The position numbers were made by a program, and so were the translations under genes. DNA of 64,000 nt from Calothrix sp. PCC 7507 (GTDB taxonomy: Bacteria; Cyanobacteriota; Cyanobacteriia; Cyanobacteriales; Nostocaceae). The stretch lies in NCBI RefSeq assembly GCF_000316575.1, contig NC_019682.1:1426001-1490000 (forward strand), read 5' to 3'. The notes under the pieces are model-generated. The model worked only from the letters and a program-made list of their open reading frames with translations. It ran no database searches and was not told where the DNA came from. Positions 5,214 to 26,618 of the stretch are shown in pieces (the stretch's first letter is position 1; the number at the start of each line of letters is the position of its first letter).

Positions 5214-5224
5214 AGATCGAGAAA

Positions 5225-5241
5225 TGGGGGGAATAATCATG
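5225..5241 (+). promoter_or_regulatory. Ribosome binding site fixing the start of the WD40 gene
   Basis: GGGGGGA lies about 7 bases before the ATG at 5239. The in-frame start at 5146 lies inside the palindromic repeat and would add residues encoded by repeat DNA. The start at 5239 (MSNPTIYTVGG) begins the conserved protein. Confidence 0.7.
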
Positions 5242-8586: not shown

Positions 8587-8628
8587 GGGGGGCAGGGGGC
8601 AGGGGGCAGGGAGCAGGGGGAAGGGTGA
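8586..8628 (+). repeat. G-rich simple repeat
   Basis: Direct GGGGGCA-type units (GGGGGGCAGGGGGCAGGGGG) directly follow the WD40 stop codon. The G runs could form a quadruplex in the transcript tail. Confidence 0.6.
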
Positions 8629-9012
8629 GTAACAAAAATTTTGCTGTTCATAACGAATGTCGTCGTGTTGGTTATGAACGGGAGCGTTTTCATGACGAAC
8701 GTCGTGATGTTGTTTACGAACGTCGTGATGTTGGTTATGAACGTCGTCATGTTGGTTATGAACGTCGTCATGTTGGTTATGAACGTCGTGATGTTGGTTA
8801 TGAACGTCGTCATGTTGGTTATGAACGTCGTCATGTTGGTTATGAACGTCGTCATGTTGGTTATGAACGTCGTCATGTTGGTTATGAACGTCGTCATGTT
8901 GGTTATGAACGTCGTCATGTTGGTTATGAACGTCGTCATGTTGGTTATGAATGCGATCGCTTTCATAAGTCAAAGTGACAAATAATTTGGACACGCGGAC
9001 AAATAATTTGGC
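8629..9012. repeat. 21-bp minisatellite array
   Basis: About 15 units of GAACGTCGTCATGTTGGTTA plus one T (21 bp) between 8653 and 8967, with degenerate edges. The outer pair GACAAATAATTTGG at 8977 and 8998 keeps the 21-bp spacing and looks like a diverged edge of the array. The period is a multiple of three, so several frames stay open on both strands. I see no ribosome binding site or conserved start and do not call a gene. Confidence 0.85.
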
Positions 9013-9022
9013 AATCGACAGA

Positions 9023-9180
9023 TGGAATGGAGAATAGGAGACTCGAACCCCTGACCTCTGCGGTGCGATCGCAGCACTCTACCAACTGAGCTAATTCCCC
9101 TTAAACAGCCAAGCAAAATCTCACTTATTCGCTCAACACCCCTTGCACATCATATTCTAACATCAGATATCATAGGCTGA
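9023..9180. repeat. Left 158-bp direct repeat (attachment site region)
   Basis: Matches 20357-20514 without gaps. It contains the complete tRNA-Ala gene and about 80 bp on its 5' side. Beyond the repeat the two loci differ at once. Confidence 0.9.
9028..9100 (-). tRNA. tRNA-Ala (CGC anticodon), left copy
   Basis: The reverse strand folds as a 73-nt tRNA. The acceptor is GGGGAAT with ATTCTCC and includes a G3-U70 pair, the alanine identity element. The anticodon stem is CTGCG/CGCAG, the loop is ATCGCAC with anticodon CGC, and the T loop is TTCGAGT. CCA is not encoded. The anticodon arm overlaps a GCGATCGC octamer. Confidence 0.93.
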
Positions 9181-9193
9181 CCTAACCCCTAAA

Positions 9194-9231
9194 TGTCCTA
9201 GTGATGCTCTTTTTAGGACAGTTTTAGGACA
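9194..9231. promoter_or_regulatory. Candidate integrase arm-type sites, left end
   Basis: TTAGGACA occurs at 9213-9220 and 9224-9231, 11 bp apart, with the inverted core TGTCCTA at 9194-9200. The second copy ends on the base before the integrase ATG, so binding could also repress the gene. Three matching copies lie at the other end of the element. Confidence 0.55.
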
Positions 9232-10317
9232 ATGAGAGCAATCGCACCAACTAATAACAACGGCTCTATCCAGCTAAAATTATCCTGGGGCGGGAAGAGG
9301 TACAGCTTCAATCCAGTACCTGGGGGGCACTATACAGATAAAAGGGATTTGTTAACAGCACAGGCGATCGCTACAAAAATACAGAATGACATCCTAGCTA
9401 ATAACTTTGACCCCACGTTAGATCGTTACAGGCTATCCCCTAAACTAAACAAGTCTAAACCAGTTACTTTAATTGAAATTTGGGATTTATGGGTTGAGTC
9501 CTTAGAACTGCCAGCACACACTAAGGCTGACCACTACCACTGGGTACGTCAAATGATACTCAAAGCCAAGTTGGAGTTGACATCCACTACATGGTTGACC
9601 ACTACTAAACTAGCTCCTAGAACTTACAACGAACGCTTAGGTATGTTAAAGGCTTGTTTTGATTGGGCGGTTAGTCAAAGCTATGTAGAAAGTAATCCTT
9701 ATATTGCACTTAAGTCACGGAAGGGCGGTAAAGCAAAGGTTGTACCATTCACCCTATGCGAAGCCAAAAGTATATTCGATGGCTTCCGGGAACACTACCC
9801 CCATTACCTGCCATTCGTATTGTTTCTAATGACTACAGGTACTCGCACTGCAGAGGCAATTGGTCTTAGATGGAAGCACATCGACTTAGCAACTGGCACG
9901 GTGACAATATCTGAGTCAATGCCAAGAGACTTATTAGGTAATGGATACACGCGGATAAGAAAGGATACAAAGACTGGTAATACAAGGTGCTTTGTTGTAC
10001 CAAAGGAACTTTTAGAAGTAATAATCAACATGCAACCGTCCCCCTGCGGCCAGGAAGATTTAGTGTTTTTAAGCCCCAAAGGTTGCATCATAGATGCTGA
10101 CAACTTCCGGGAAAGGCAATGGAAACGAGTACTAGAAAAGCAGGGTATTCCCTATAGGAAGCCTTATACCGCTAGGCATACGATGATAAGCCACGCCATA
10201 GAAAAGGGTGTTCCTATAACTGGGTTAGCTTACCTGGTTGGGCATAAAGACACCAGCATGATAATTAAGACCTACGGACACATGGTTAACAAACCAGAAC
10301 TGCCTACACTTTTTTAA
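9232..10317 (+). CDS. Tyrosine recombinase / phage-type integrase
   Basis: A 361-residue protein. The N-terminal 70 residues form a small arm-binding-like domain (GSIQLKLSWGGKRYSF), then a SAM-like core-binding region, then the catalytic domain. Visible catalytic residues: Arg in TGTRTAEAIGLRW, Lys in KDTKTGNTR, Arg-His in YTARHTMIS, His in VGHKDTSM, and the nucleophile Tyr in IKTYGH. The usual first His of the HxxR motif is replaced by Tyr, a change seen in other phage integrases. It should catalyse integration and excision of the element at the tRNA-Ala repeats. The ATG follows two TTAGGACA sites directly, so autoregulation is plausible. Confidence 0.93.
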   Translation: MRAIAPTNNNGSIQLKLSWGGKRYSFNPVPGGHYTDKRDLLTAQAIATKIQNDILANNFDPTLDRYRLSPKLNKSKPVTLIEIWDLWVESLELPAHTKADHYHWVRQMILKAKLELTSTTWLTTTKLAPRTYNERLGMLKACFDWAVSQSYVESNPYIALKSRKGGKAKVVPFTLCEAKSIFDGFREHYPHYLPFVLFLMTTGTRTAEAIGLRWKHIDLATGTVTISESMPRDLLGNGYTRIRKDTKTGNTRCFVVPKELLEVIINMQPSPCGQEDLVFLSPKGCIIDADNFRERQWKRVLEKQGIPYRKPYTARHTMISHAIEKGVPITGLAYLVGHKDTSMIIKTYGHMVNKPELPTLF

Positions 10318-10361
10318 TCACTATATTTAACAAACTTTTCCATCACGTTGGAGCATTTTTT

Positions 10362-10922
10362 ATGGTTGGCGTATCCAAAGGTATTGTGAAAGTTGAGTCT
10401 TTTAGAGGCAAGTTAAGACTAAGGTTGCCATCTACTATTGCAAAAGATTCAAAAAGATATATATCCACAGGTTTGGATGACACAAGAGTGAACCTACAGA
10501 AAGCACAAATTATGGCATGGCAGATAGAGGATGATGCTAAAAATGGCACATTTGATTTTAACAAATTTAAATTAAATAATTTAACAAATCCAAATAACCA
10601 AATTAAAAAAGTAGTTCTTTACGCTAGAGTCGGCACTCGTAGACAACTAAATGCACTTGCGTCACAAATAGCTTACCTTTTAGAGAAGTACCCAGGTTCT
10701 GAAGTTGTTAAAGATGTTGCTAAAGGAATAAATTGGAAGCGTAAAAACTTTATTAAATTAATGGAACGTGTTAACAACAAAGAAATAACCACAATTGTAG
10801 TAACTGACAAAGATAGATTATGCGATTCTGGTTTTGAGTTTGTTAAATGGTTTTGCAATCTTAATAACTGTCAAATAGTAGTTCTTAACAACAAAGAATT
10901 GTCCCCGCCTGTAATTGAATAA
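10362..10922 (+). CDS. Arm-domain protein fused to an inactive IS607-like serine recombinase domain
   Basis: A 186-residue protein. The first 70 residues (VESFRGKLRLRLPSTI, RYISTGLDD) resemble the N-terminal arm-binding domain of cyanobacterial phage integrases. From about residue 83 it reads as an IS607-type resolvase domain: VVLYARVGTRRQ, KGINWKRKNFIKLMERV, IVVTDKDRL and IVVLNN. In active enzymes the first motif is YARVS; here the nucleophile Ser is Gly. The Arg expected after KDRL is Asp (KDRLCDSG). So it is probably not catalytic. It starts 44 bp after the integrase stop and is likely co-transcribed. A DNA-binding accessory or directionality role is inferred, not shown. Confidence 0.7.
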   Translation: MVGVSKGIVKVESFRGKLRLRLPSTIAKDSKRYISTGLDDTRVNLQKAQIMAWQIEDDAKNGTFDFNKFKLNNLTNPNNQIKKVVLYARVGTRRQLNALASQIAYLLEKYPGSEVVKDVAKGINWKRKNFIKLMERVNNKEITTIVVTDKDRLCDSGFEFVKWFCNLNNCQIVVLNNKELSPPVIE

Positions 10923-11148
10923 CCGCTTCGTCTTTTAGGGTATTTAAAACGCTACACCCCATACAAGACAATGGGTTGGCGCTGCGCCTTTAATTTAATA
11001 AACTAAAACAAATCACTATCGCTAAACCCTTATCCAGTAATGGTTATACTTGTTTCAAGTTATTTAATCGCTATCGTTAACTTTTTGCTTAGAGGAAAAG
11101 GGTTTCAATGGCATCCCTAAAACTAACTTTAATAAACCAATCGGTCGG

Positions 11149-11389
11149 TTTGTTAAAATAATTTGTTGTACTTTGTTAAATCTGCTGGTGTGGGTTTTTC
11201 AATACTTTAACAAATAGCTTAAAAAAACCCAGGAAACTAACTTTGTTAAACAGACTGATTGCATAAAAACTCAAGCGAATATTAACTTTGTTAAATCACT
11301 TTGTTAAACCTCCCCCTCGCGCAAGTTTTTTTAAATTTCTTATTTATTAAATAAACAAACCCAACTTTGTTAAACCTAATTTTGTTAAA
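11149..11389 (+). repeat. Cluster of seven TTTGTTAAA nonamers (iteron-like)
   Basis: TTTGTTAAA starts at 11149, 11172, 11242, 11287, 11300, 11366 and 11381, all in one orientation. The first forms the right arm of an imperfect dyad with TTTAATAAACC upstream around AATCGGTC. The mirror cluster near the other end of the element (20027-20257) suggests binding sites for an element-encoded protein. The whole stretch 10923-11400 has no convincing gene. Confidence 0.65.
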
Positions 11390-11640
11390 CCTCACCTTGG
11401 TCACGCAATGAGAGAACATCCGCTCCCTCGCGCAAGTTTCTTATTTAATTTCTTATTTATTAAATTATTTATAAATTTTCTGGTTGTGTTGGTTGTTTTG
11501 GGTTTGTTTGTTTTGGTTGTCTGTCGGTCTGGTTGTTTGTTTGTTTGGGTGTGGGTTTGTGTGGGTTGGTTGGGTGTGGGTGTGGTTTTGTTGTGGCTGT
11601 TGTGGTTTGTGTGTGGTGTGGTGGTTAAGTATTGTTCTGA
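11313..11640. repeat. Direct repeat and G+T strand-biased tract
   Basis: CCCTCGCGCAAGTTT followed by TTTCTTATTTATTAAAT occurs twice, near 11313 and 11422. Then, from about 11476 to 11630, the plus strand is almost only G and T (TTGGTTGTTTTGGGTTTGTT and similar). Frames are open on both strands because the composition lacks stops. I do not call a gene. Confidence 0.6.
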
Positions 11641-11911
11641 TGAGTAGAAGCTACACTCCATATCCAGTAAGGACTAGAGGCATTTATCTGTTTTAGTTAG
11701 GGAAATATCACCTTAAATCAAAATAAAAATAGAAAAAGAAACAGTTGAAACTGAATCAGTTTATGCCCTTGCTTTGTTAGTTCTGGTTGTGACTAATTTA
11801 AAAAAAATATTACCTATTTGTAATTTATGTACTTCAAAATGTAATTCGATAATTTATAATTGTTATATAGTTTCAAAACTAGTGCTGAGTTTCTTAATAA
11901 AGGATAAAAAA

Positions 11912-12109
11912 ATGGGGAGAATTAAAAGCGTATTTGGAGTAACACAAAATTATTTAGCCTTGATATTAGAAATCAACCCAGTATCAATATCAAAATGGTT
12001 GGATGGCAAGGCAAGACCAAGACTATATCTGCACCAAGTAGAGGCATTAATGGAAGTTACAAAAAAGACTCTACCGGAGCTAAGAGAAATACTTGACCCA
12101 GAGCATTAA
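11912..12109 (+). CDS. Small HTH (Cro/CI-like) regulator
   Basis: A 65-residue protein from the ATG at 11912 (MGRIKSVFGVTQ), preceded by AAAGGA 8 bases upstream. A longer in-frame reading from 11774 adds a Cys-rich stretch without features and is less likely. VTQNYLALILEINPVSISKWLDGKARP is a clear helix-turn-helix of the XRE type, followed by a short helix (EVTKKTLPELREIL). The size suits an element repressor or copy-control protein. It lies just upstream of the polymerase gene and may control it. Confidence 0.7.
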   Translation: MGRIKSVFGVTQNYLALILEINPVSISKWLDGKARPRLYLHQVEALMEVTKKTLPELREILDPEH

Positions 12110-12166
12110 TTATCTGGGTACATATTAATAACTTTTTATTTGTAATGTTGAATAGATAAAAAAAGT

Positions 12167-12185
12167 GCCCGGTTGTCAGCCGGGC
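12167..12185 (+). other. GC-rich hairpin before the polymerase gene
   Basis: GCCCGG (12167-12172) pairs with CCGGGC (12180-12185) over a short loop, 28 bases before the polymerase start. No T-run follows closely, so it may be a weak terminator for the HTH gene or a leader structure. Confidence 0.45.
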
Positions 12186-12213
12186 TAATTTAAAAAGTCT
12201 AAAGGATATAATA

Positions 12214-14391
12214 ATGTCTAATTCAAGAGTCCCACAAGGGGGCAAATCAGATTCAGTCGTAGTGTTAAACCAGGATTCCTCTTGTTTATATGGACATTGT
12301 AACCCTATAAATATTATACCAGGTAATCAAGAAGAGAGTAGAAGCAAAGTTAACAAAACTTGGAAGGATTACAGACCTGTAAAATCATATGTTGTCACCC
12401 CATCAGTTAGAAACTATTTAGAGAATGAGTTATTAAGTGGGTTTAATAAAGACAGCCGCAGGTTTGTATATCATTTAATAGCCAGAAGTGTTGATATGGT
12501 GTTGCGTTTGTTAAATGGCTATATAAATAATTACAGCAAATGGATTGAGAAGAATTTCTCTAAAGCTGAGATTGGAATACTGGAGCTTGCAGAGATTATT
12601 GAAATCGACCACAGCTACAGTGTGGAACTGCATAAGAGTAAACAGTATCGAATAAAACCATCAATCTTATATAAAATAGATGAGTTAATATTTCAGGATT
12701 TAATAAACTTAAACCATGAACGATATGACTTGATGAAGGGTAAGAGCATTAAAGACGCTCTTGTGTCCATCCTCTATGATGAAAACAATAATTGTCTGCC
12801 AGAGATAGTCGTACAGCGTATTAAAGGATATGCCCCTTGCGAGTTTAATTGGAAGGGATGTGTTGATTGGGTTATTAAATTAAGAAACGAAGCAAATTTA
12901 ATAAAGCAACAACATGGCAGTAACACCAGTAAATTCCAAAGTGCGTATGCGCGTTATCGTAATGACCTTGACAAGTTAAGAAAAATAATTACTGATTGTG
13001 GTGCAATTCATTTACATGGCGACACATGGGTGTACATGGCTCCGTATAAGGCTCAGAAGTCTGGCAGGTTAACTCACATTGGTGGTGGGTTTCAGAGTGC
13101 TTCAAGAGGTTTTACAGCAGCGGCATTTAAAGACAACCCGAACTACAACAATTATGATATGACTTCAGCCCAGCCAAACTGTATGGCTCAATTGTTAGAG
13201 AGTTTGGGGTTGGATGCAAGTTTTATTAAAAATGAAATATTATATTCTAAAAATAAAGAAGCATTGTTTGAGCGCTGCGGAATTAAAAAGCAAACTGGTA
13301 AAGATTATTTAATAGCTTTATTAATAGGTTCCCCTATAGTACCCGCCACAATAGAATCAAGAGAACGCTTTGCTGCTGTTTCAAGGCTAATGGATGAATG
13401 GAAAAATGCTCAAGAAACAAATAACTTCCACAAATTAATAACTACGTTGGAGGGTGAGACTAAAGAGGTGAAAATTAAAAAAATAAAACCTCCAGCCACT
13501 ATCTCACTTTTATTAAAAGAATTTAATAACAATGACAAATTAGCTTTTGAAGCATTACAAAAAATTAGTTATGAATTTGCGCCTTTAATAAAAGTCATTG
13601 AAGAATATAGACAACTTTTAACAAAACTAATAAAACCAAAAACTGATGATGATAAAGGTTTAACAAAACCAGATTGGTTAACTAAACATAAAGGGATTAC
13701 CTACATTAAAAATAAATGCGGGATGTTGTTAAAAGTTGATGACTTACACGCTAGTCAATTGATTGGAAAAGTAACAGCCCATTTACTGCAAGGGATGGAA
13801 GCTGCTTATATGTCATTTATTATTCAACTTGGTGATAAATATAGTTACAAAGCTGTACAAGACTTTCATGACGGGGCGATTATTAAAGGGGCAGTACCTA
13901 TAGAAGCAGAATTAGAAGCTTCTAGTTTATCGGGAGTTGAAGGGAAGTTAGAAATTAAACCTTTTGAAGACCCTTTTAACAAATATAATCCAGCAATATT
14001 TGATAACTTTATTAAATCTTTTAATATCCATGCCAACTCTGATGAAGAATTAGATACTGATAGTGCGGCGTTATTAACTTTTACTGAAACGACTGCATTT
14101 CACCTCGATGAAATCATTTCTAGTACCATAGAATATAAACCTGTTATCAATTCTGATAAACGTGCAACCACGGGGGTTACAGACATTAACAAAGTTGAAA
14201 ATATTAAAATTAACAAAGCACAGCTTTCAATAATGGAACTCAAGCGCGACGATGCGGAGTTAAATTTCGATTCTGATGAACAACTAGATGCATGGATGGT
14301 AGAACTTAGAAAAATTGAAGATGAAGAAGAACAAAAAAAACAGTTTAACAAATTTAAAAAATATGCAATTAAGATGGCATTAGCTAGCTAG
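12214..14391 (+). CDS. Divergent family A (T7-like) DNA polymerase, element replicase
   Basis: A 725-residue protein. The polymerase core motifs appear in order: SGRLTHIGGGFQSASRGF, like the TGR-TH segment of T7 DNA polymerase; motif A YDMTSAQPNCMAQLL with the catalytic Asp; motif B KQTGKDYLIALLIGSP, which lines up with the O helix; and motif C FHDGAIIKG with the second catalytic Asp. Departures are Lys for the first Arg of motif B, Ile-Ala at the Tyr-Gly position, and Gly for Glu after His-Asp. No proofreading exonuclease motif is obvious in the N-terminal 270 residues. The C-terminal 130 residues are acidic and poorly structured. It most likely copies the excised element. An RNA polymerase-like activity cannot be excluded. 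Upstream: an HTH regulator; downstream: a bidirectional terminator. Confidence 0.65.
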   Translation: MSNSRVPQGGKSDSVVVLNQDSSCLYGHCNPINIIPGNQEESRSKVNKTWKDYRPVKSYVVTPSVRNYLENELLSGFNKDSRRFVYHLIARSVDMVLRLLNGYINNYSKWIEKNFSKAEIGILELAEIIEIDHSYSVELHKSKQYRIKPSILYKIDELIFQDLINLNHERYDLMKGKSIKDALVSILYDENNNCLPEIVVQRIKGYAPCEFNWKGCVDWVIKLRNEANLIKQQHGSNTSKFQSAYARYRNDLDKLRKIITDCGAIHLHGDTWVYMAPYKAQKSGRLTHIGGGFQSASRGFTAAAFKDNPNYNNYDMTSAQPNCMAQLLESLGLDASFIKNEILYSKNKEALFERCGIKKQTGKDYLIALLIGSPIVPATIESRERFAAVSRLMDEWKNAQETNNFHKLITTLEGETKEVKIKKIKPPATISLLLKEFNNNDKLAFEALQKISYEFAPLIKVIEEYRQLLTKLIKPKTDDDKGLTKPDWLTKHKGITYIKNKCGMLLKVDDLHASQLIGKVTAHLLQGMEAAYMSFIIQLGDKYSYKAVQDFHDGAIIKGAVPIEAELEASSLSGVEGKLEIKPFEDPFNKYNPAIFDNFIKSFNIHANSDEELDTDSAALLTFTETTAFHLDEIISSTIEYKPVINSDKRATTGVTDINKVENIKINKAQLSIMELKRDDAELNFDSDEQLDAWMVELRKIEDEEEQKKQFNKFKKYAIKMALAS

Positions 14392-14448
14392 CGACGAACA
14401 CAAATATAAATTTTATTGGTTTAAAAATAATAAATTCGATCGTGACCT

Positions 14449-14490
14449 AAAAAGACCCATTGTTTTATTAAAAGTACATGGGTCTTTTTT
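14449..14490. terminator. Bidirectional terminator
   Basis: AAAAAGACCCAT at 14449-14460 pairs with ATGGGTCTTTTT at 14478-14489 and has T and A runs on both sides. It sits between the convergent polymerase gene and the gene ending at 14518. Confidence 0.85.
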
Positions 14491-14517
14491 ATTAAGCCAG
14501 TTACTATTGCGTGAATA

Positions 14518-15465
14518 CTAGTCAATGTCTAAGAAGTCATCACTAACTTCAATTTCTTCCCCCTTTTTTGCAGGGTATAATATAGTGCAATATCTCCATA
14601 ATTGAACCATTGAGACAGAAGAGTCCAACAACTTATCTCTGTCTCGCTCAGATAAGTTGCTCATGTACTCAATAAAGGACTGAACTAAAGAATCTAACTC
14701 TGGTTTATTAACGTCAAGTTGTGCTTTTGAAATCTTAAATAGGATTTCTGTTGCCAGTTGAATAAATGGCTCAGGGGTCTTGGGGTTATCTGTGGTGGCA
14801 TAATTTTTATTAACCCCGTCCATTGAGATTTTAAAACAAGCCTGACACATTAAAACTGAGTCATAAATTTCTCTATATTTCTCATGATTCATTCCAGCAT
14901 CTTTAAGCTGATGAACAAACTCATTAGATATATATTTATGATCAAGTACGTGCCCTTTTATTGTAGGTATAAATGTTTTGTTAAAAATATCATAAATACC
15001 CCAATCCAGCCCATATATTTGAGTCGCATAGTTCTCTTCCCAAACAGCAACAATTGCTCTATCGGTCGCCCAAAAAGCAGGTTCCCACTTAGGGTATAAC
15101 TTCTTGAATACATGTTTACATGCCAAAACAATGGAAGTGTAAATATCTACTCGTAGAAAGATGGAATGTACCCACCCTATAGTCTGGGAATACTGTTTAC
15201 TGGTGGTCTCAAGTATTATGGGCAGTGATTTTTTACGGTCTACCTCACTGTTAGCGTCATCAACGATACCAAGGAAGAAGATACCCTTTAACGAAAGTCT
15301 ATCTTGTACTTCTTTGTACGAGGGTACGTAGAACTGTTCGCCCCAGTATTTATCACCAGGGGTTAGGTGGTCTTTCCCTGTTGTGTCTATTAACTGCTGC
15401 TTAATAAGTTCTACGGAAAGCAGCGGCAGTACTTCGTGATTGATGTCCTCGTTGTTGTCAGACAT
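14518..15465 (-). CDS. Element-encoded hypothetical protein
   Basis: A 315-residue protein starting at the ATG at 15465 with GGAAGG just upstream. I do not recognise it. It is acidic and helical, with several aromatic-rich stretches (GDKYWGEQFYVPSYKEVQ, WEPAFWATDRAIVAVWEENY), one MCQAC pair of cysteines and an acidic end. There is no signal peptide or membrane segment. It is the last leftward gene before the terminator shared with the polymerase and stands alone, with a divergent short transcript behind it. A role in element maintenance is possible only by position. Confidence 0.6.
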   Translation of the reverse strand: MSDNNEDINHEVLPLLSVELIKQQLIDTTGKDHLTPGDKYWGEQFYVPSYKEVQDRLSLKGIFFLGIVDDANSEVDRKKSLPIILETTSKQYSQTIGWVHSIFLRVDIYTSIVLACKHVFKKLYPKWEPAFWATDRAIVAVWEENYATQIYGLDWGIYDIFNKTFIPTIKGHVLDHKYISNEFVHQLKDAGMNHEKYREIYDSVLMCQACFKISMDGVNKNYATTDNPKTPEPFIQLATEILFKISKAQLDVNKPELDSLVQSFIEYMSNLSERDRDKLLDSSVSMVQLWRYCTILYPAKKGEEIEVSDDFLDID

Positions 15466-15517
15466 TTATTTTACCTTCCTTAATTTCGGGCGACTATCAT
15501 GTAATATATACGTGAGT

Positions 15518-15523
15518 TATAAT
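15518..15523 (+). promoter_or_regulatory. Candidate -10 box
   Basis: TATAAT lies 30 bases before a small open frame at 15553, and a terminator follows at 15670. No good -35 is seen at the right spacing. Confidence 0.35.
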
Positions 15524-15552
15524 CTATACCCGGTAAGAAGATAAAAGAACTT

Positions 15553-15651
15553 ATGCCGCCTCCTCAAGTCACATCCCCTGTTAATAAAGTGGTCAAACCC
15601 TTACTGCGTAAATGCCATTGCCTGGTCGGTTATTTTAATAAAAGTCAGTAA
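15553..15651 (+). CDS. Possible small protein, 32 residues
   Basis: ATG at 15553 with AAGAAG upstream opens a short frame beginning MPPPQVTSPVNKVVKPLL and containing Cys-His-Cys (KCHCLVG). It lies between a TATAAT box and a strong terminator, so a discrete transcript of about 190 nt is likely. Whether it is translated or acts as RNA cannot be told. Confidence 0.3.
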   Translation: MPPPQVTSPVNKVVKPLLRKCHCLVGYFNKSQ

Positions 15652-15669
15652 ATCAAAATTAGATACAAA

Positions 15670-15712
15670 AAAATACCCACTCAGCACATAGACTCACTGA
15701 GTGGGTATTTTT
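15670..15712. terminator. Bidirectional terminator
   Basis: AAAATACCCACTCAG at 15670-15684 pairs with CTGAGTGGGTATTTTT at 15697-15712. It can end the short rightward transcript from about 15530 and the leftward operon whose last stop is at 15777. Confidence 0.85.
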
Positions 15713-15776
15713 ACTCATAATTATAGTCAGTGTTAAGTTATAAAATCACTTAGTGACTTTAACAAAACTCAAATTT

Positions 15777-16049
15777 TCAATTAGCTTTTTTACCTTTGGG
15801 TAAGACGGGGCGTATATCAGACTCAGGTTTAACAAATTGCTTAAGTTCTTCAATAATTGATTCCCATGTGTGATTATTGCTAAGTTTTTCAGCAGCGTAG
15901 ACTAAAGCCTCATTTTTACTAATACCAATCCCTTCAACGCTATCAGTCAGGTCAAAAATTTCTTTAATTTGAGATTCGGTTAATGGATGCATTTTGTTAA
16001 ATCCTTGGGTAGATTTTATTTTGATGGGAGGATAGAAATATCTTGTCAT
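15777..16049 (-). CDS. Hypothetical protein, translationally coupled
   Basis: A 90-residue protein. Its ATG at 16049 overlaps the stop of the preceding gene (ATGA), which favours this start over the internal ATG at 15992. Residues from MHPLTESQIKEIF onward form a helical domain with alternating charges and end in a Lys-rich tail. It has no membrane segment, and I do not recognise a family. It is co-transcribed with the membrane-anchored coiled-coil protein upstream and ends before a terminator. Confidence 0.55.
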   Translation of the reverse strand: MTRYFYPPIKIKSTQGFNKMHPLTESQIKEIFDLTDSVEGIGISKNEALVYAAEKLSNNHTWESIIEELKQFVKPESDIRPVLPKGKKAN

Positions 16050-16384
16050 TTGTTAAACCTGTCAGATATCTTTTCAATATGGTCATCAATTCTATCTAGT
16101 CGATGTATAACCTCTTTATGGTTGCGGTCGTGGTCGCCGACACTTTTTTCATGTTCCTTAGCCAAAGAATCTAGTTTAGTAGCTATCGCACCCAGAGCTT
16201 TAAAACCAGACCGACAATCAGAGAGAAACCCTTTTAAATCCAGTAGATAAGCCCCTACGAAGAGAGCTAGGAGTAGAAAACCTACAGTGCCGTTATCCGC
16301 AAATACTTTAACAATGGATGTTGGTAGGTCGGGCGGGAGCGGTTGGATGGGGATTTCGATAATATACTTTTTGTTAACAAGCAC
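16046..16384 (-). CDS. Small membrane protein with C-terminal coiled coil
   Basis: A 112-residue protein starting with GTG at 16384 (MLVNKKYIIEIPIQPLP). One membrane helix (VGFLLLALFVGAYLLDL) is followed by a charged heptad-like region (EHEKSVGDHDRNHKEVIHRL). The layout, a short membrane anchor plus coiled coil, is seen in holin or haemolysin-XhlA-like phage proteins, though the order here is reversed relative to XhlA. It lies between a structural-like gene and the coupled gene at 15777, within the element. A holin-like role is speculation. Confidence 0.5.
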   Translation of the reverse strand: MLVNKKYIIEIPIQPLPPDLPTSIVKVFADNGTVGFLLLALFVGAYLLDLKGFLSDCRSGFKALGAIATKLDSLAKEHEKSVGDHDRNHKEVIHRLDRIDDHIEKISDRFNK

Positions 16385-16410
16385 TAATTCACCTTTGTTA
16401 AATATAAGAA

Positions 16411-16434
16411 AAACCTCTAGGATGTCCTAGAGGT
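16411..16434. terminator. Hairpin terminator
   Basis: AAACCTCTAGGA at 16411-16422 is mirrored exactly by TCCTAGAGGTTT at 16423-16434, followed by ATTA. It lies between the tail-like gene and the membrane protein gene. Confidence 0.75.
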
Positions 16435-16540
16435 TTATTAAAAGTTGAATTTACTGATTTGATGATTCTCTTGCCAAACGCTCAATAACATCACTAAGGC
16501 TAGTAGCGTGTATTTCGCGTTGTTTAGATTCAATCCATTA

Positions 16541-16587
16541 AGTAATAAAAAGTATTAAGAGTATAATTTTTAACACTTTTTATTACT
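16541..16587. terminator. Hairpin downstream of the tail-like gene
   Basis: AGTAATAAAAAGT at 16541-16553 is mirrored by ACTTTTTATTACT at 16575-16587, eight bases beyond the stop of the gene ending at 16595. It is AT-rich but perfect over 13 bp. Confidence 0.6.
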
Positions 16588-16594
16588 AATATAC

Positions 16595-17728
16595 TTATTC
16601 TACATATACGCGATTAAAGCGGAGGTTTCTACCGTTAACTGACTCACCGCGTATTTGAATACCAGCACTCATATATTCGTTAGCGGTTGGCAGAGTGGCT
16701 GAGGTTGAACCAGTGTAAGAAGTGCCGTCAGTCAAGTTGTCAATTTTATAAGAGATAGTAGAGCCAGCGCGGGGGCAGTAGATGTAAAAATCGTAAAGTT
16801 TATTATTAGTAAAAGTAGCCCCGGTTATGGGGGTTGTAGTTTGAGTTGTACCGTCTTTAGTAATAAATTGAAATGTTGAATCACTTCTAAAAGTAGAGTA
16901 ACTAAAACCTGAGAAGTTACCATCGGGCGTATCAGTACTTGTGATATAACCGTCATACCAACCCTTAGAGATAGAAGTAGGGAGCCAAGTATATAAACCT
17001 GCGTAGAATCTGGTGTTTGTATATGTAGAATCCGGGAACAGTATTCTAGTGAAGTAGAAATAACCACCAAAACCATTAGCATTTGTTCCTCTACACCAAA
17101 GGCGACTATTAGTGCTGAGACTTGATGCGATAAAAGTGGTATTTGGGGTAACGTTTACGTTAGTAACACTAGCGCTGGCGAGATTGACCATTAAAGGTAC
17201 TAAATCATCTGTTGGCGCTATATGGGAGACTGTACCTAGAGTGGTGCTGAACTGCCCATAAGTTCCAATAGTAGACCCGTTTGTTGGGTAGAAGATGGTA
17301 ACAGGATTTCTAGCTAATCCTGTCTGAGAAAGATATTCTCTACCATCTGGGGTTTGTGTAACTGGAAACGACCGACCTCCGATATCAGAGGCATATAGTA
17401 GAACATTATTAGATGCTGGAGCGGAAGGCTTGCTTGAACTGATAGCAATACTAATAGTGGGGATAGTTTTTAACCCAGTAATAGTTTGTGCCGTGTTAGT
17501 AGTTAATAAATTACCAACAGTAATACTATCAAGCTTTGTTTTATCAGCGGCAGACATAGAACCAGCAAGAGAAACGGTAGCTGGCGCACCAATCATTATT
17601 TCATCGGGGGTAATCTTTCTATTACCTGTAGTCCCAGCACTAATGTCTACAATTGGTAAAACATCAACAGCACGGTCTAGAGCAGCACCAGTTAGTGCTG
17701 CCTCAGCGGAAATCTTCGTATTAGGCAT
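16595..17728 (-). CDS. Phage tail-fibre-like structural protein
   Basis: A 377-residue protein, low in charge and rich in Thr, Ser, Asn and Gly. The N-terminus (AVDVLPIVDISAGTTGNRKI followed by TPDEI) resembles the start of many phage tail or fibre proteins that have a VDVSxxT...KIT pattern. The C-terminal part (about 180-377) is beta-rich with many aromatic residues and could be a carbohydrate-binding jelly-roll. No signal peptide. It is followed by a hairpin, and the next leftward gene upstream is a broken BNR-repeat gene. Together they suggest a phage- or satellite-derived structural module. The assignment rests on pattern only. Confidence 0.55.
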   Translation of the reverse strand: MPNTKISAEAALTGAALDRAVDVLPIVDISAGTTGNRKITPDEIMIGAPATVSLAGSMSAADKTKLDSITVGNLLTTNTAQTITGLKTIPTISIAISSSKPSAPASNNVLLYASDIGGRSFPVTQTPDGREYLSQTGLARNPVTIFYPTNGSTIGTYGQFSTTLGTVSHIAPTDDLVPLMVNLASASVTNVNVTPNTTFIASSLSTNSRLWCRGTNANGFGGYFYFTRILFPDSTYTNTRFYAGLYTWLPTSISKGWYDGYITSTDTPDGNFSGFSYSTFRSDSTFQFITKDGTTQTTTPITGATFTNNKLYDFYIYCPRAGSTISYKIDNLTDGTSYTGSTSATLPTANEYMSAGIQIRGESVNGRNLRFNRVYVE

Positions 17729-17757
17729 TAATAAACCTCAAAAATAAATCTATAAAA

Positions 17758-18263
17758 TTAGGTATTTATGGAAGCGTAGTAGACACCACTACCGCCAGAC
17801 CCTACAAATACATCACCAAAAACTTGAAGGCTTGCCCCCATGCAGTTAGGATCGTTGCCTATTTTGACACTCCCGATATCGATTAAATTCCAAGTAGCGC
17901 CAAGGTCTGTTGATTGATAAATACCCCATACGCCCCCTCTAGAGGCAAACGCATACACTGTATACGTAGCACCTGTTGAAGTACCCTTACCTAGTGCTGC
18001 CAGTTTAACTTTGTTAAAATCTGACATAGCTGTAAAGGAAGCCCCGCCATTAGTAGATAATGCTAGCTTTGGTGAAGAACCACTAGTTGAGTCTGTATAT
18101 AACCATACATGTCCCTCTTCTGTGGGGGAAGGAAGTACACCATAATAAACGTGAGTTGTTCTAACGCCTGTGCTGCTATTAACTTTTTCCCAAGTGTAAT
18201 CTGGACCAATAAATGAACCATTCCAGGTTGCAACCCAAAGGCTATTATCTGTCAGGTAGTAGA
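17758..18263 (-). pseudogene. BNR/Asp-box repeat protein, 5'-truncated
   Basis: Reading leftward from about 18263, the frame gives SIYYLTDNSLWVATWNGSF, then LALSTNGGASFTAMSDF and IYQSTDLGATWNLID, and stops at 17758. The SxDxGxTW-type motifs are Asp-boxes of BNR/sialidase-like beta-propellers, also found in phage tail proteins. There is no start codon at the 5' edge: at about 18263 the sequence changes abruptly to the opposite-strand ATPase gene, so the N-terminal part is missing. A short in-frame ATG at 18027 exists but would leave only a propeller fragment. Confidence 0.65.
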
Positions 18264-19404
18264 TGCTGACAAATCTAAATTAGGTGGGTGCATCATCGTA
18301 GCTTGCCCAGGTGCAGGTAAAACAACCTATTTAGGTACTGCGTGGGGTAGGTTGAAAGCCCAGTTCGGGAATAACTTTAAAAGCTTGGCTGTGGTGGTCA
18401 AACAAAGCGATTTGCAAGCCTTCAAGAAATGCTCAGATAATGCATTATGTGTGAAAAGTTCCCCGGTAGATGCTGCTGTCGCAATTATTAAATTTATCAA
18501 CCAAGGGATGCACCATGACGGCAATGTAAAACGGTTATTTCTTGACGACTTCCTAACTATGATTGGGAAGCTTGAGAACGCTTGCAAGGGGCTGTTTATA
18601 AACCCAAGTAATTATAGGGTTTATATGGACAGCAAAGAGAAAAAAGACGCTGGTGATTTTGACGCTATCTCACTCTACGACTGTCTTCTAGATGCCTTAA
18701 ATGAAGCTTGGCTAGTGGGTAGAGAGTTTAACCTTTCTCTTTGGGTATCTTCCCACTCTTCCAATGTTGAGTCACTACCTTTCGCTAAGTCTAGGGATGC
18801 TAGAGCAGTTGGTGATTTAATATTCTTAGCTAAAAACAATCAAAGAGAATTTATTGAACAGGCATTAAATAACCCCAACCTTATCGGTAACAACACCAAG
18901 AGACAGCAGTTAAAGTCAGTTTTCGATGGCTTCGCCGCATCTAGTAACGAACCTTGGGTATTAGCTAAATATAATAACTGGTCACTAGGGATTGTATCTA
19001 GTGAAGTGAGGGAAGAATACGAAAAGTATAGACACCAATGGGATAACGAAGTACACGAGCCAGCTAGTGTTCACTTAACAAACGGCGCGTTAAGTGATCG
19101 TATGTTAAATACACTCTACAAGATTCCTGTACATATAAGCGATATGGAGCGATTAGAACGGTCATTTTCTTTACCATCAGTGCAAGAAATAAAAGTACTT
19201 CCAGCCCATCCATTAGTATCAAAGATAATAGAGATTATTAATGCTTCTTCATCAGGTTCGATTAGGTTTGATGCCTTGCGTAAAAGTAGAAAATGGGGTA
19301 CTGAAAACCCTAAAAGTGAGGACATAAAAGAAGCTCTTAAACTACTAGTGGAAGCTGAAAAAATAAGTGGTAGTGATGATGAAGGTTACACATTAATAAA
19401 ATAA
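18262..19404 (+). pseudogene. P-loop ATPase, 5'-truncated
   Basis: The frame is open from 18262 and shows GGCIIVACPGAGKTTYLG, a Walker A, then RLFLDDF, a Walker B, and KSRDARAVGDLIFLAK further on. About 380 residues remain. The C-terminal 60 residues (SSGSIRFDALRKSRKWGTEN) look like a small winged-helix domain. The Walker A lies only about 15 residues from the edge, directly at the junction with the truncated BNR gene, so the natural start and any N-terminal domain are lost. A TTG at 18352 would skip the Walker A. A replication or packaging ATPase of the element is the likely origin. Confidence 0.6.
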
Positions 19405-19414
19405 TCTGGGTGTT

Positions 19415-19521
19415 CAGGAACAGTTCCAGGAACAGATAAAAAGGGAGCCTGGAACAGTCAGGAACAAGGTAATATCAATGTTCCTGGCGTTCCTGGGACA
19501 TGTTCCTGAGTCTGTTCCTGA
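19415..19521. repeat. GGAACA/TGTTCC array forming a large dyad
   Basis: GGAACA cores in direct orientation at about 19417, 19430, 19451 and 19461 are followed by inverted TTCCTG cores at about 19481, 19490, 19503 and 19515. The set is roughly symmetric about 19472. It follows the ATPase stop by 10 bases. Confidence 0.6.
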
Positions 19522-19651
19522 GAACAAACTATTAACTAAAGAGGTTTTTATAACTGAACTCGACTTATATTCAGAAGTTATTTTATTGAATAAAAGCAGC
19601 TTTTCATTTAGTAAAAGATGTCCAGAAATAAATGTCTTTTTGGTGAGATTT

Positions 19652-19700
19652 AATAACCCCTTATGATACACATTAGTATCATAGGGGTTATTTTTTTTTA
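19652..19700. terminator. Strong hairpin terminator
   Basis: AATAACCCCTTATGATAC at 19652-19669 pairs with GTATCATAGGGGTTATT at 19676-19692, and a run of nine T residues follows. It ends rightward transcription from the ATPase region. Confidence 0.85.
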
Positions 19701-20026
19701 TCTAAATTCAAGTGACTATGTTGAGGTCATTTATGTGCTAGAAAGCACTAAAATATACAAAGTTTTTATTAGTCATTTGACACCTTAATAGCTAGTCTGA
19801 CACAAGGGTAGGTTAATAAAGGTTAAAGTGCCCCGTAGCTCATTCTAGACACCGATGGGAGCATTATTAGCCGCTGGCGCGCCGAGTTGTCGGGCAGTCA
19901 CTATTTTCGCTTGGGCATGAGCGTGTATCCCCCTCACTTTTTTGCTCCGCAACGACCGCATTGGAGCCTTGGGGTTATCTCGTGTGTTGTTTCTTATGTC
20001 CCATCACTATAATGTGACACGGGATT
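19701..20026. other. Gene-free stretch with a GC-rich block
   Basis: No convincing open frame. 19829-19990 is clearly more GC-rich than the rest of the element and contains short inverted pieces around GCTGGCGCGCCGAG. A structured RNA or a replication origin component is possible; I see no known RNA family. Confidence 0.4.
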
Positions 20027-20257
20027 TTTAACAAACTTATCGGTCTGTTTAACAAAGTCATGGGAGCTAACAAACTTATCGGTCTGTTTGTTAAAGTTGA
20101 GGTGGCTTAACAAATTAATGCTATTTTTAAAAGTTATGGAGGTTTAACAAACAGACCAATCAGTCTGTTTAACAAAGTTATAGAGTTTAACAAACCAATC
20201 AGTCGGTTTGTTAAAGTTGTGGAGGCTTAACAAACTGGGGCTGGCTAGTTTAACAAA
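20027..20257 (-). repeat. Right cluster of TTTAACAAA/TTTGTTAAA nonamers with hairpins
   Basis: TTTAACAAA starts at 20027, 20048, 20143, 20168, 20186 and 20249; TTTGTTAAA starts at 20087 and 20217. CTTAACAAA variants fill two gaps. Several nonamers border a central CCAATCAGTCGG-like sequence, giving repeated dyads (AACAAACTTATCGGTCTGTT occurs twice). The left cluster at 11149-11389 has the same nonamer in the opposite orientation. Confidence 0.7.
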
Positions 20258-20302
20258 ACTTCATAAACAGCTTATTGTGGATGTCATAAGGGTCAGGTAA
20301 TA

Positions 20303-20331
20303 TTAGGACAGCATTAGGACAGTTTAGGACA
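20303..20331. promoter_or_regulatory. Candidate integrase arm-type sites, right end
   Basis: TTAGGACA at 20303-20310, 20314-20321 and 20324-20331, one helical turn apart, 26 bp before the right 158-bp repeat. The same motif stands at the left end by the integrase start. Confidence 0.6.
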
Positions 20332-20356
20332 AACTAGAGACCTGGACCTCGCTGGC

Positions 20357-20514
20357 TGGAATGGAGAATAGGAGACTCGAACCCCTGACCTCTGCGGTGC
20401 GATCGCAGCACTCTACCAACTGAGCTAATTCCCCTTAAACAGCCAAGCAAAATCTCACTTATTCGCTCAACACCCCTTGCACATCATATTCTAACATCAG
20501 ATATCATAGGCTGA
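20357..20514. repeat. Right 158-bp direct repeat (attachment site region)
   Basis: Matches 9023-9180. Its last 31 bp encode the final residues and stop of the HAD hydrolase gene, so the repeat reaches into host coding sequence. Confidence 0.9.
20362..20434 (-). tRNA. tRNA-Ala (CGC anticodon), right copy
   Basis: Same 73-nt sequence as the copy at 9028-9100, with CGC anticodon and G3-U70. The upstream DNA on its 5' side is the host HAD gene end, so this copy keeps the native 5' flank. Confidence 0.93.
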
Positions 20515-22129: not shown

Positions 22130-22417
22130 GGGATTTGCTTTGAGTTGATGGGCTATTTAAACCACAGTCATATTATTTACAAATTTTAATATATTCCTGG
22201 CATATCTGGAGCAACTGGAGTGACAAATAAAACAAACAGAATACATTAGTTGTCAGTCATCAAGATTTCGCACTACAATTGTAATACAAAATCAACTACA
22301 CCCTAAGAGCAGTTCTTTAGCTGGACGAAAACTCAAAATGTCAATTACTATAACTAGTCAAAACATCGCCTTTTCACCGAGAAATCACTCTAAATAGATT
22401 CCAAAAACAATAAAACT

Positions 22418-23978
22418 ATGCCCTACGAAAAGTTAGAAATTACCACACCAAAGCCAGTCTTATCTTGGGCAAATCACCCTTTAGGACACGAAGAAACCAA
22501 GATGGCAAAGAATGTAGCATCATTGCCATTTGTGTTCAAACATGTAGCATTAATGCCCGATGTTCATTTAGGTAAAGGTGCATTAGTAGGTTCTGTATTA
22601 GCAACAAAAGAAGCAATCATACCAGCGGCTGTGGGTGTGGATATTGGTTGCGGGATGAGTGCTATCAAAACATCATTTACTGCAGATCAACTAGAAGGTA
22701 AACTGAAAAAAATTCGCTTGGATATTGAAGCAGCAATTCCTACTGGTTTCAACGAAAATAAAGACGTTGAAAAATCTGTCACTAACTGGCAACACTGGAG
22801 TGATTTTAAAAACTTGCATCGAGGTGTACAAGACCTGCAAGGCAAAGCAATGAAACAAATGGGTTCTCTTGGTGGGGGTGAAAGATTGCCCCTTACTGTA
22901 GTAATACAGTAATCAAAACTCGTCCAAATCGGTGAAAGCTGAGAAATAGTAAATTTTTTATATACTTCGGTCTTGATCGTCGGTGATATAATTACACAAA
23001 AAAAGATTTACTTGCTAATACCGAGGGAAGCGGTAAAACGCCCCGTAGAGAGCAGAGGGACTTGGGCATCCTAATTGTTTAGGATGAAGGTGTGCTCCGA
23101 ACTATACCGAATCTGAAGGTATAGAATCAAGCAGAAATGACTTGATCGATTGTAACTTTCATTGAGTGTTCGATGAAAGTGCTAGGCAGAAGTCAAAACA
23201 GTGTTGAACTAAGGCTGTGGAGACTAAATAAAGTCAGCAAGCAATCAGTAACAAATTGAATCACTTCATCGAGGTATGCCTCGATACAGAGAACCAAGTT
23301 TGGCTGATGTTGCATTCAGGTTCGCGCAACATCGGTAATAAACTAGCACAATGCCATATTCACACAGCTAGAGATTTAGCTAAGATGGCAGGCAATAACT
23401 TACCTGACCCTGATTTAGCCTATTTTGTAGCTGGTACTCCAGAATTCCAAGCATACTGGAATGATTTGCAGTGGTCACAAAATTATGCCCGTGTCAATCG
23501 TGATGTGATGATGGCGCGATTTAAACACATCATAGAAAAACATCTGATAGGTGGCAAGGCAACTAAGCCTCTATTACAAGTCAATTGTCATCACAATTAC
23601 GCTGAAAAAGAAGTGCATTTTGGCGAAGATGTGTATGTAACTCGTAAAGGTGCAGTCCGCGCCCAAACTGAAGATTATGGCATTATTCCTGGTTCAATGG
23701 GGACAAAATCTTTCATCGTTAAAGGTAAAGGTAATGTTCACAGTTTCTGTTCTTGCTCTCATGGTGCTGGGCGTTTATTGTCGAGAAATAAGGCAAAAAA
23801 CGTCTACACACTCGATGATTTGATTGAGCAAACCAAAGGTGTAGAATGCCGCAAAGATGAAGGTGTATTAGATGAGATTCCTGGTGCTTATAAGCCTATA
23901 GATCAAGTAATGCAGAATCAATCAGACTTGGTTGAAGTTGTAGCTACACTCAAACAAGTTATGTGTGTAAAAGGTTAA
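22418..23978 (+). CDS. rtcB: RtcB RNA ligase, split by a group I intron (exons 22418-22879 and 23259-23978)
   Basis: Joined exons give 393 residues, close to the 408 of E. coli RtcB. Exon 1 (154 codons) has the metal-binding GVDIGCGM (Asp75, Cys78) and ends in SLGGG. Exon 2 (239 codons) begins NHFIEVCLD, completing the GGGNHF motif with its catalytic Asn-His, then HSGSRNIGN, NCHHNY and CSHGAGRLLSR, which holds the His that becomes guanylylated. RtcB is a GTP- and Mn-dependent ligase that joins 2',3'-cyclic phosphate or 3'-phosphate ends to 5'-OH ends. Without splicing, exon 1 runs 11 codons into the insert and stops, giving an inactive piece. The exon junction is exact in frame when the insert 22880-23258 is removed. 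Confidence 0.93.
22880..23258 (+). ncRNA. Group I intron in rtcB, 379 nt, no ORF
   Basis: Pairings read by eye: P1 exon GGGGU (22875-22879) with GCCCC (22888-22892), giving a U-G pair at the 5' splice site. P10: GAUU (22884) with exon-2 AAUC (23259). P2: UUACUGUA/UACAGUAA. P3: GUCCAA (22922) with UUGGGC (23062). P4: UCGGU (22929) with ACCGA (23020). P5: AGUAAAU (22948) with AUUUACU (23006). P6: GGG-GCG/CGC-CCC (23025-23044). P7: GAGCA (23050) with UGCUC (23093). P8: AUCCUAA/UUAGGAU (23068-23085). Three hairpins follow at 23102-23124, 23126-23146 and 23156-23179. The last base is G, as the group requires. The order P3-P4-P5-P6-P7-P3-P8-P7 is the group I core. No homing endonuclease is encoded. 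Confidence 0.9.
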
Positions 23979-25392: not shown

Positions 25393-26058
25393 TTAAACAG
25401 CCAAAACTTTACCCTTATATGTCCACTTGAAAGGTTTAGCCATTGTTTGATTAAAGTAGTCAATAAAAGCAAGAATTCTAGTTTTGAGATCATCCTGACT
25501 CTGGAAACTGGCTCTTCTTAGTAACTTCCGTACCAAAATACTAAACCAAATTTCAATTTGGTTGAGCCAAGAAGAATGTAGTGGTGTGTAATGGAAAACG
25601 ATTTGATGTGTGGGGTCACTTAAAAAAGCTGCACGAGATTTCATTGATTTGAGGATGCCACTTTTACCCTTAATGCCAAGGTTGATGTTTAAACCTTCAA
25701 TTTGTGCAACAAAACGAACTAAGGACTCCGATTGATGAGTGTTCAGGCAATCCATAATTAAATGCCATTTTTTCGCATTGGGGTCAGTGGCAATAGTTTG
25801 ATGAATATGAAAGATAAAATCAACTTCTGTTCTGGAATCTCCACAAGTTGGTCTGATAATTTGACCAGTGGCAACATCGAAACTGGCTATCAAGGTTTGC
25901 GTACCGTGACGAATATATTCAAATTCCCTTCTTTCAACTTTGCCCGGTCGCATTGGTAAGTCTTTTTCTATGCGCTCAGTAGCTTGAATACCTGTCATCT
26001 CATCAATAGATATTGTGCGTTCCCCCTTTAGATGACGGTCAATCGCATTTAAATACAA
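25393..26058 (-). CDS. IS630 transposase, DDE domain (OrfB)
   Basis: A 221-residue frame with the full DDE triad: Asp in ISIDEMTG, Asp in LIMDCLNTH and Glu in SSWLNQIEIWF. It overlaps the end of OrfA by 10 bases in a different frame and has no convincing start of its own before LYLNAIDRH. The natural product is probably an OrfA-OrfB fusion made by slippage at the nine-C run (plus-strand G at 26100-26108). One added C would join SRYWLTPPP to LDEKFDAKVEDI. It catalyses cut-and-paste transposition into TA. Confidence 0.85.
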   Translation of the reverse strand: MYLNAIDRHLKGERTISIDEMTGIQATERIEKDLPMRPGKVERREFEYIRHGTQTLIASFDVATGQIIRPTCGDSRTEVDFIFHIHQTIATDPNAKKWHLIMDCLNTHQSESLVRFVAQIEGLNINLGIKGKSGILKSMKSRAAFLSDPTHQIVFHYTPLHSSWLNQIEIWFSILVRKLLRRASFQSQDDLKTRILAFIDYFNQTMAKPFKWTYKGKVLAV

Positions 26059-26618
26059 ATCTGTAATATCTTCAACTTTTGCATCAAATTTTTCATCCAG
26101 GGGGGGGGAGTCAGCCAGTACCGACTTTGGTGTGGCTTCAATTGAGCTTCTTCTAATAGTCTTCCCACATGGCGAACAGATATACTTTCGATAATCCCTT
26201 GTTTTGTAATTTCATCTGTCAGTTCTCTAGATGTCCAGTGACTTATTGTCCGACCGTAATCTTCTGGCGGCGAACAGGCAAGCGCAAACAACTCTATTAC
26301 TTGTTCCATGCTAAATTTTACTGGTGCGCCAGTACGCTCTTGATCTTGTAATCTTTGAAAAGCTGATAATTTTGCTCCCTCTGTCTCCAACCATCGCTTT
26401 CGCCATAAACGAGTCATATCTAGACTAATCTCTAATATTCGAGCAATTTCGCCGTTATTTTTCCCTGATGATGCCAGAAGAATAATTTTGGCTCGGATGA
26501 CGATTTGCTGTGCTGTCTTATGTCCCTTTATCAACTCTTGTAGTTCATTCTGCTCACTATCACTCAAACTTAATTCTTTTGGAGCTAATCTTGCCATACC
26601 CTGATTCTTTGTCACCAA
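26049..26618 (-). CDS. IS630 transposase, HTH domain (OrfA)
   Basis: A 189-residue frame, starting at GTG 26618 or ATG 26597 (MARLAPKELSLSD). Two helix-turn-helix units are visible: NGEIARILEISLDMTRLWRK and a winged region, SHWTSRELTDEITKQ with SVRHVGRLLEEA. It ends in LTPPP followed by 16 out-of-frame residues after the nine-C tract. It binds the terminal inverted repeats. Both halves of the enzyme look intact, so the element may still move if slippage supplies the fusion. Confidence 0.85.
   Translation of the reverse strand: MVTKNQGMARLAPKELSLSDSEQNELQELIKGHKTAQQIVIRAKIILLASSGKNNGEIARILEISLDMTRLWRKRWLETEGAKLSAFQRLQDQERTGAPVKFSMEQVIELFALACSPPEDYGRTISHWTSRELTDEITKQGIIESISVRHVGRLLEEAQLKPHQSRYWLTPPPWMKNLMQKLKILQICI

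Follow-up and report, generated by a model that had tools for sequence, protein, structure and literature searches.

Two reviews (PMC12702839, PMC3984707) cite Meng 2007, in their accessible parts, for group I introns in cyanobacterial ribonucleotide reductase genes, and Hausner 2014 and a 2025 review, again in the portions available, name further protein-gene introns and include cyanobacterial ribonucleotide reductase among them. Endonuclease-encoding group I introns are also described from cyanobacterial rRNA genes (Haugen 2007, PMC1995217); likened by the description in the accessible part of that paper only, they too are cyanobacterial group I introns that encode an endonuclease, as some of those presented here do, but lie in rRNA genes and not in a protein gene. 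A sequence-only reading of our locus had called bacterial group I introns rare in protein genes; the accessible part of a review says that they occur there 'less frequently' and lists flagellin, recA and nrdE (cyanobacterial nrdE too). Searches of open-access literature turned up no earlier description of rtcB with a group I intron, and this is weak evidence of novelty, since subscription journals lie mostly outside that coverage. With the locus described below, rtcB would be added to the few protein genes of bacteria in which such introns are listed.

In the window (the whole analysed stretch, 64,000 nt of Calothrix sp. PCC 7507), rtcB is interrupted on the forward strand by a 379-nt insert between codons 154 and 155, at the junction GGG/NHF (Table 1). 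The sequence-only reading had located this point and seen that the frame is restored, and its coordinates are exact: when 22880-23258 is taken out the two Pfam RtcB halves fuse into a 393-aa RtcB. In an alignment with the solved PH1602/RtcB chain, Asn155-His156 of this protein fall on an Asn-His (202-203, numbered by eye), a pair that we take to act in the metal site. Read without splicing, the frame is closed after 10 intron codons by a UAA at 22910-22912, in the 3' end of P2. The intron is present as a single copy in the source genome.

Table 1. Positions, in the window, of the interrupted rtcB, the elements of its intron and a candidate upstream site
Feature	Position	Strand	Remarks
TrcR-operator-like candidate site	22270..22287	+	14/18 to the published motif (PMC10272220, accessible part); best in the 64-kb window
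rtcB exon 1	22418..22879	+	codons 1-154, 3' end GGT GGG GGT; Pfam RtcB 109.7 bits; joined translation
P1	22875..22892	+	exon GGGGU 22875-22879 / GCCCC 22888-22892; U-G at splice site
Group I intron	22880..23258	+	379 nt, last base G
P10 guide GAUU	22884..22887	+	pairs with exon 2 AAUC 23259-23262
P2	22893..22912	+	6/8 pairs with compensatory change; 3' end contains the in-frame UAA stop
P3	22919..23066	+	22919-22925 / 23058-23066, two unpaired U; 7 pairs, formed in 100% of cells, varying on one side only
P4 and P5 region	22929..23024	+	P4 22929-22933/23020-23024; P5 22938-22939/23014-23015
P5 extension	22949-22958/23002-23011	+	present in 7/26 introns
P6 and P6a	23025..23044	+	one pair C-G to U-A in 5/26
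P7	23048..23098	+	23048-23054/23093-23098, unpaired A as putative guanosine site; C-G to U-A pair in 4/26
P8, enclosed by P7	23067-23072/23081-23086	+
P9 and P9.1	23102..23146	+	P9 23102-23108/23118-23124; P9.1 23126-23131/23141-23146, two pairs with compensatory change
P9.2	23148..23246	+	GAUUGU 23148-23153 / GCAAUC 23241-23246; drawn by eye, outside the pair counts; loop houses the HEG in relatives
HEG remnant	23164..23259	+	last 31 codons; UGA across the 3' splice site; frame read against intact HEGs
rtcB exon 2	23259..23978	+	codons 155-393 and stop, 5' start AAT CAC TTC (Asn-His-Phe); Pfam RtcB 300.9 bits

The U-G pair of P1 at the 5' splice site, the P10 pairing (GAUU/AAUC) and the terminal G, all proposed beforehand from the letters alone, are present in the window, where 68 of the 68 pairs in a model running from P1 to P9.1 form. 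The intron region also folds to a minimum free energy that none of 100 shuffled sequences reached (z = -3.8).

Related introns stand at the same place in other cyanobacteria. With the intron as blastn query, 14 of 291 genomes of the order gave a match, and in 11 the match lies in rtcB at codon 154 (10 complete introns, that of the window included, and one reaching a contig end). The earlier reading had proposed to look for this insertion point in other Nostocales. The three weak matches lie outside rtcB: one (G124) resembles a reductase intron, one (G246) scores 29 bits against the family model R1 introduced below, and the last (G082) does not match R1 at all. For comparison, an RtcB protein match was seen in 210 of the 291 genomes at E <= 1e-20 and in about 197 at E < 1e-100, with the matches of the remaining 13 probably being to a divergent paralogue; among the RtcB matches listed, every one runs uninterrupted through codon 154. 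A scan of genome contigs with a pattern for the 5' junction gave 30 stretches, of which 25 are cyanobacterial rtcB genes with an intron at codon 154, from 25 other species, while the five non-cyanobacterial stretches hold no rtcB and are chance matches. Complete introns could be taken from 22 of the 25 examined loci; together with that of the window and three blastn loci (L039, L041, L042) they make up the 26 introns (235-1065 nt) compared here.

The distribution is patchy. On an rtcB tree built by a quick method from 58 rows, 25 with and 33 without the intron, and with codons 145-165 left out, intron presence requires 12 state changes, seven of them forced by supported branches; the rows without intron were drawn mostly from the best matches to the query and are not a random sample. 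In this tree the rtcB of the window falls together with four genes that have no intron, so that its nearest kin lack the element. Presence at one site alongside empty orthologues, as a mobile intron should display, is thus seen in cyanobacteria, and also in phages, where BSP36 carries the intron and BSP38 does not (see below).

We aligned the 5' parts of the 26 introns, from exon base -9 through P9.1, with a group I structure written by hand in which P3 and P7 cross. Of 1571 pair cells, 99.5% are formed, compared with 35-45% when the structure is slid along the alignment; P3, P4, P6, P7 and P8 are paired in every cell of all 26 introns, the crossed P3/P7 pseudoknot included. Ten of the 68 pairs show two-sided changes (six in P2, one in P6, one in P7, two in P9.1), against a mean of 5.1 in shuffled alignments, and none of 500 shuffles reached ten, while a second measure, of further pair types, showed no excess (281 of 500 shuffles). 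These compensatory changes amount to few events, as the same four related introns hold both the change in P7 and five of the six in P2, and the P6 change is confined to five introns. P1, P4 and P8 are invariant, and P3 varies only on one side. All 26 introns have the U-G pair of P1 and the terminal G, at least three of the four P10 pairs (counted by eye), and the sequence for an unpaired A adjoining G-C in P7. An unpaired A next to G-C in P7 is the guanosine-site pattern of group I introns.

The sequence-only reading had named a covariance score below threshold among the findings that would refute it, and there the locus does fall short: Intron_gpI (RF00028) matches 22870-23124 with 26.3 bits against a gathering threshold of 50 (E 1.6e-4 in an 801-nt search), and a scan of the whole window at that threshold did not call Intron_gpI at the rtcB insert. 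The Rfam model seems insensitive to the branch to which this intron would belong: three ribonucleotide reductase intron loci (L128, L151, L044) likewise went uncalled at E <= 0.01. A family model of our own (R1), built from 18 of the 26 introns with that of the window and those with long inserts left out, scores the window at 193 bits. Searching with R1 gave 29 places, made up of five rtcB introns, six assigned to reductase genes and 18 for which no host gene was called; ARAGORN, run on 26 loci, detected no tRNA, and Rfam at E <= 0.01 called one of 13. Judged by its sequence, the insert at 22880-23258 is a group I intron, as the earlier reading had it, on the strength of the pairs formed in the window and across the 26 introns, the compensatory changes and the purifying selection on the exons described below.

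We give next to no credence to the insert being an intein, a group II intron or an insertion sequence instead. Inteins do occur in rtcB of relatives, beside the Cys of GVDIGCG, but the early in-frame stop closes the insert here and hence it does not qualify as one. It contains no ORF of 60 aa or more, and no other Rfam family overlaps it, the three other matches listed falling outside (E 0.79-1.3).

Seven of the 26 introns carry, in the loop of P9.2, an ORF of 268-269 aa for a homing endonuclease (HEG), which ends in a UGA lying across the 3' splice site; in the single HEG scanned, LAGLIDADG_3 matches two stretches (E 1e-8). The other 19, including that of the window, have no ORF of HEG length. 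What the window keeps in place of an intact HEG is its last 31 codons, in frame and with the stop, so that its intron is an internally deleted copy. In every one of the 21 pairs among the seven carriers, HEGs are more alike at third codon positions than exon 2 of rtcB. A move of the element after its hosts had split would give this result, although base composition bias could contribute and dS of rtcB often reaches saturation; when all positions are counted, the six pairs that involve one carrier (L052) show the reverse, with lower identity in the HEG than in rtcB.

The HEG also matches eight phage records, and in five Bacillus phages of the Herelleviridae (BSP36, 278BB001, Goe17, Goe20, Goe27) it lies inside rtcB. 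The phage introns interrupt rtcB at the same GGG/NHF junction, although phage RtcB is only 29-33% identical to that of the window in the longer aligned pieces, and their LAGLIDADG HEG is 48-51% identical to one cyanobacterial HEG. They score 40-44 bits with R1 and 67-73 bits with Rfam Intron_gpI, all five above gathering, have an in-frame stop at intron nt 31-33 and share the P9.1 loop GCAGAAAUGAC. They differ from the intron of the window in having an intact HEG, and from the cyanobacterial rtcB introns compared in the ribozyme core, where P3-P6 is only 49% identical. The feature tables of the phage records list distinct CDS, with no intron annotated. In BSP38 rtcB is uninterrupted, and it departs from that of intron-bearing BSP36 at 25 of 1209 bases, four of which are among the last seven of exon 1. 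Scans of viral sequences gave one weak relative with the HEG protein (36% over 68 residues) and no match with the HEG alignment; patterns for the 3' and 5' junctions matched once and three times, in places that neither encode RtcB or the HEG nor match the model, and two P9.1 patterns matched zero times each. In a jumbo phage (LR745208; L114 1851-3663) an uninterrupted rtcB is followed directly, at the record end, by a HEG relative that is possibly free-standing. Goe27 (L115 1538-2431) and Goe20 (L116 1563-2416) each show two extra sub-threshold Intron_gpI matches (26-30 bits) upstream, where the RtcB alignment breaks, near the site of the cyanobacterial intein.

The introns of cyanobacterial ribonucleotide reductase genes (RIR/nrd), whose host gene we assigned by eye from ORF motifs, resemble the rtcB introns in another part of the molecule. 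R1 scores five of them at 46-63 bits and two more (L135, L144) at 31-35. We compared regions in an alignment fitted to R1, with five cyanobacterial rtcB, four phage and five reductase rows. In P3-P6 the rtcB introns are 0.73 identical to the reductase introns against 0.49 to the phage introns; in P9.1 the order is reversed, 0.66 to phage against 0.50 to reductase, while P9 departs from this pattern, with 0.53 to phage and 0.61 to reductase. The reductase introns differ further in host gene and site, and among their carriers in the searched genomes no related HEG was found at E <= 1e-10. A core nearer to reductase introns with a P9.1 nearer to phage introns could suggest a chimera, in which a reductase-lineage core acquired the HEG, the P9.1 and the GGG/NHF address of a Bacillus-phage intron, or of a common source, with the HEG acting as an exchangeable address that moves cores across phages and cyanobacteria to one active-site codon pair. 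We put this forward tentatively, as somewhat more likely wrong than right: permutation gives p 0.003 (with one cyanobacterial row), yet 10 of 137 circular shifts do equally well, and P9.1 may be under tertiary constraint.

Both exons of the interrupted rtcB are under purifying selection. Against 29 orthologues, 20 with and nine without the intron, dN/dS of the window exons is 0.026-0.12 where computable: 0.036-0.12 for exon 1 (27 of 29) and 0.026-0.099 for exon 2 (25 of 29), the other comparisons being dS-saturated. This bears on whether the intron has ceased to splice, leaving rtcB a pseudogene whose work is done by a second rtcB. Such a gene does exist in the source genome, uninterrupted and 31% identical, and the low Rfam score and the lost HEG would agree with decay; we nevertheless hold a dead insertion to be highly improbable, as exon 2, downstream of the stop, has the low dN/dS just given (though a very recent death would escape this measure), every proposed pair is retained in the window, and P1, the stop and the terminal G are retained in 26 of 26 introns. 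An intact RtcB from another copy, with this one silent, is what the earlier reading had named as telling against itself, and the presence of the second, uninterrupted gene bears this out in part. At the junction, Gly153-Gly154 is encoded as GGG GGT in all 10 complete carriers found by blastn against two of 33 intronless loci (of which two, L047 and L080, are identical in rtcB), suggesting that P1 or co-conversion constrains these codons; the 22 introns from the junction scan are uninformative here, since GG-GGGGGT in the exon was already prescribed by the search pattern.

From structure, site, relatives, HEG remnant and exon selection, all in silico, we consider it very probable that the insert is a mobile LAGLIDADG group I intron at GGG/NHF which spread by homing, lost its HEG in the window, and keeps a complete ribozyme that splices to give RtcB; splicing, endonuclease activity and homing are what we infer from these data. 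In full-length members, the LAGLIDADG endonuclease encoded in the P9.2 loop presumably cuts intronless rtcB, whereupon repair would copy the intron in; the patchy distribution and the HEG remnants fit a mobile element of this kind. The copy in the window has lost most of the HEG by internal deletion while retaining the complete ribozyme. During expression, a ribosome would halt where P2 ends, at the in-frame stop, the core would fold, exogenous guanosine would attack after the U-G of P1, and the exons would join to yield RtcB. An intron without a working endonuclease would then be kept because it splices, and excision from the rtcB RNA of the window is accordingly expected from the sequence.

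Could the intron instead be regulatory, its splicing sensing translation or the guanosine state and tuning RtcB, so that ligase and ribozyme cross-talk? An in-frame stop at intron nt 28-33, conserved in all 26 introns and read at the same position in phage introns, would place the ribosome at the end of P2. Moreover, according to the accessible part of PMC10272220, rtcB of Anabaena 7120 is repressed by TrcR, repression is relieved under translational stress, and the gene is in this way tied to such stress. The best TrcR-like site of the window stands upstream of the interrupted rtcB, by about 130-150 bp, and the gene may therefore be stress-induced; upstream of other rtcB genes the best matches to the motif reach 10-17 of its 18 positions (no shuffled control), and no link between splicing and TrcR control was seen. 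We find the regulatory reading quite unlikely: the intron is present in 11 of 291 genomes against about 197 with a close rtcB, the nearest relatives of the window gene on the tree lack it, HEG remnants and phage kin mark it as an element that moves, the second rtcB is uninterrupted, and a review, in its accessible part, reports in-frame stops from many introns of group I. The cross-talk between two ligation systems that the sequence-only reading had proposed we set aside for lack of evidence. Its claim that RtcB production depends on the ribozyme would be right for the interrupted gene, with its early stop, and is weakened for RtcB as a whole by the second, uninterrupted gene, a possible further source.

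Returning to the mobile intron, natural pairs with and without it (BSP36/BSP38; many cyanobacteria) should suit tests of homing, endonuclease loss and the exchange of HEGs between cores. It is also not the only self-splicing element in this gene. In two fully read intron-bearing rtcB genes (L039, L040) an in-frame insert lies beside the Cys of GVDIGCG, presumably a metal-site codon; that of L039 matches Intein_splicing, with HNH_3 just below the cut-off. Two Rhizonema rtcB loci are broken at the same codon, and in all four intron-bearing rtcB genes (L039, L040, L051, L069) have an insert at this Cys; some of the RtcB matches listed start only at codon 72-77 and lie inside a long open frame, as would be seen with the same intein. 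These inteins are like the intron in being self-splicing elements at an active-site codon of the same gene, and unlike it in splicing as protein and in sitting beside the Cys of GVDIGCG rather than at GGG/NHF. Active-site codons of RtcB would thus have been repeated targets of self-splicing elements of different kinds, inteins as well as group I introns.

Other interruptions of rtcB were seen in passing. In one genome (G185 contig 257, 1737-3743) the gene is broken at codons 172-184 by about 2 kb of something else, and in two others (G146 contig 8, G133 contig 75) the RtcB match stops at codon 331 in an 807-aa frame, possibly a further in-frame insertion site.

Elsewhere in the window (9023-20514), an 11.3-kb stretch lies between a pair of direct repeats, identical and 158 bp long, that hold tRNA-Ala(CGC). 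It carries an integrase of phage type (9232-10317) and is probably an integrated element, the repeats being its attachment sites. The stretch includes a 725-aa ORF (12214-14391) without a Pfam match at E <= 0.001, and a 21-nt tandem repeat array (8600-8998) adjoins the element's repeat. A 1146-aa ORF (5146-8586) reads by eye as an ATPase followed by WD40 repeats. Two adjoining minus-strand ORFs (25393-26618) are likely a transposase gene split in two frames, as the first of them (25393-26058) matches DDE_3.
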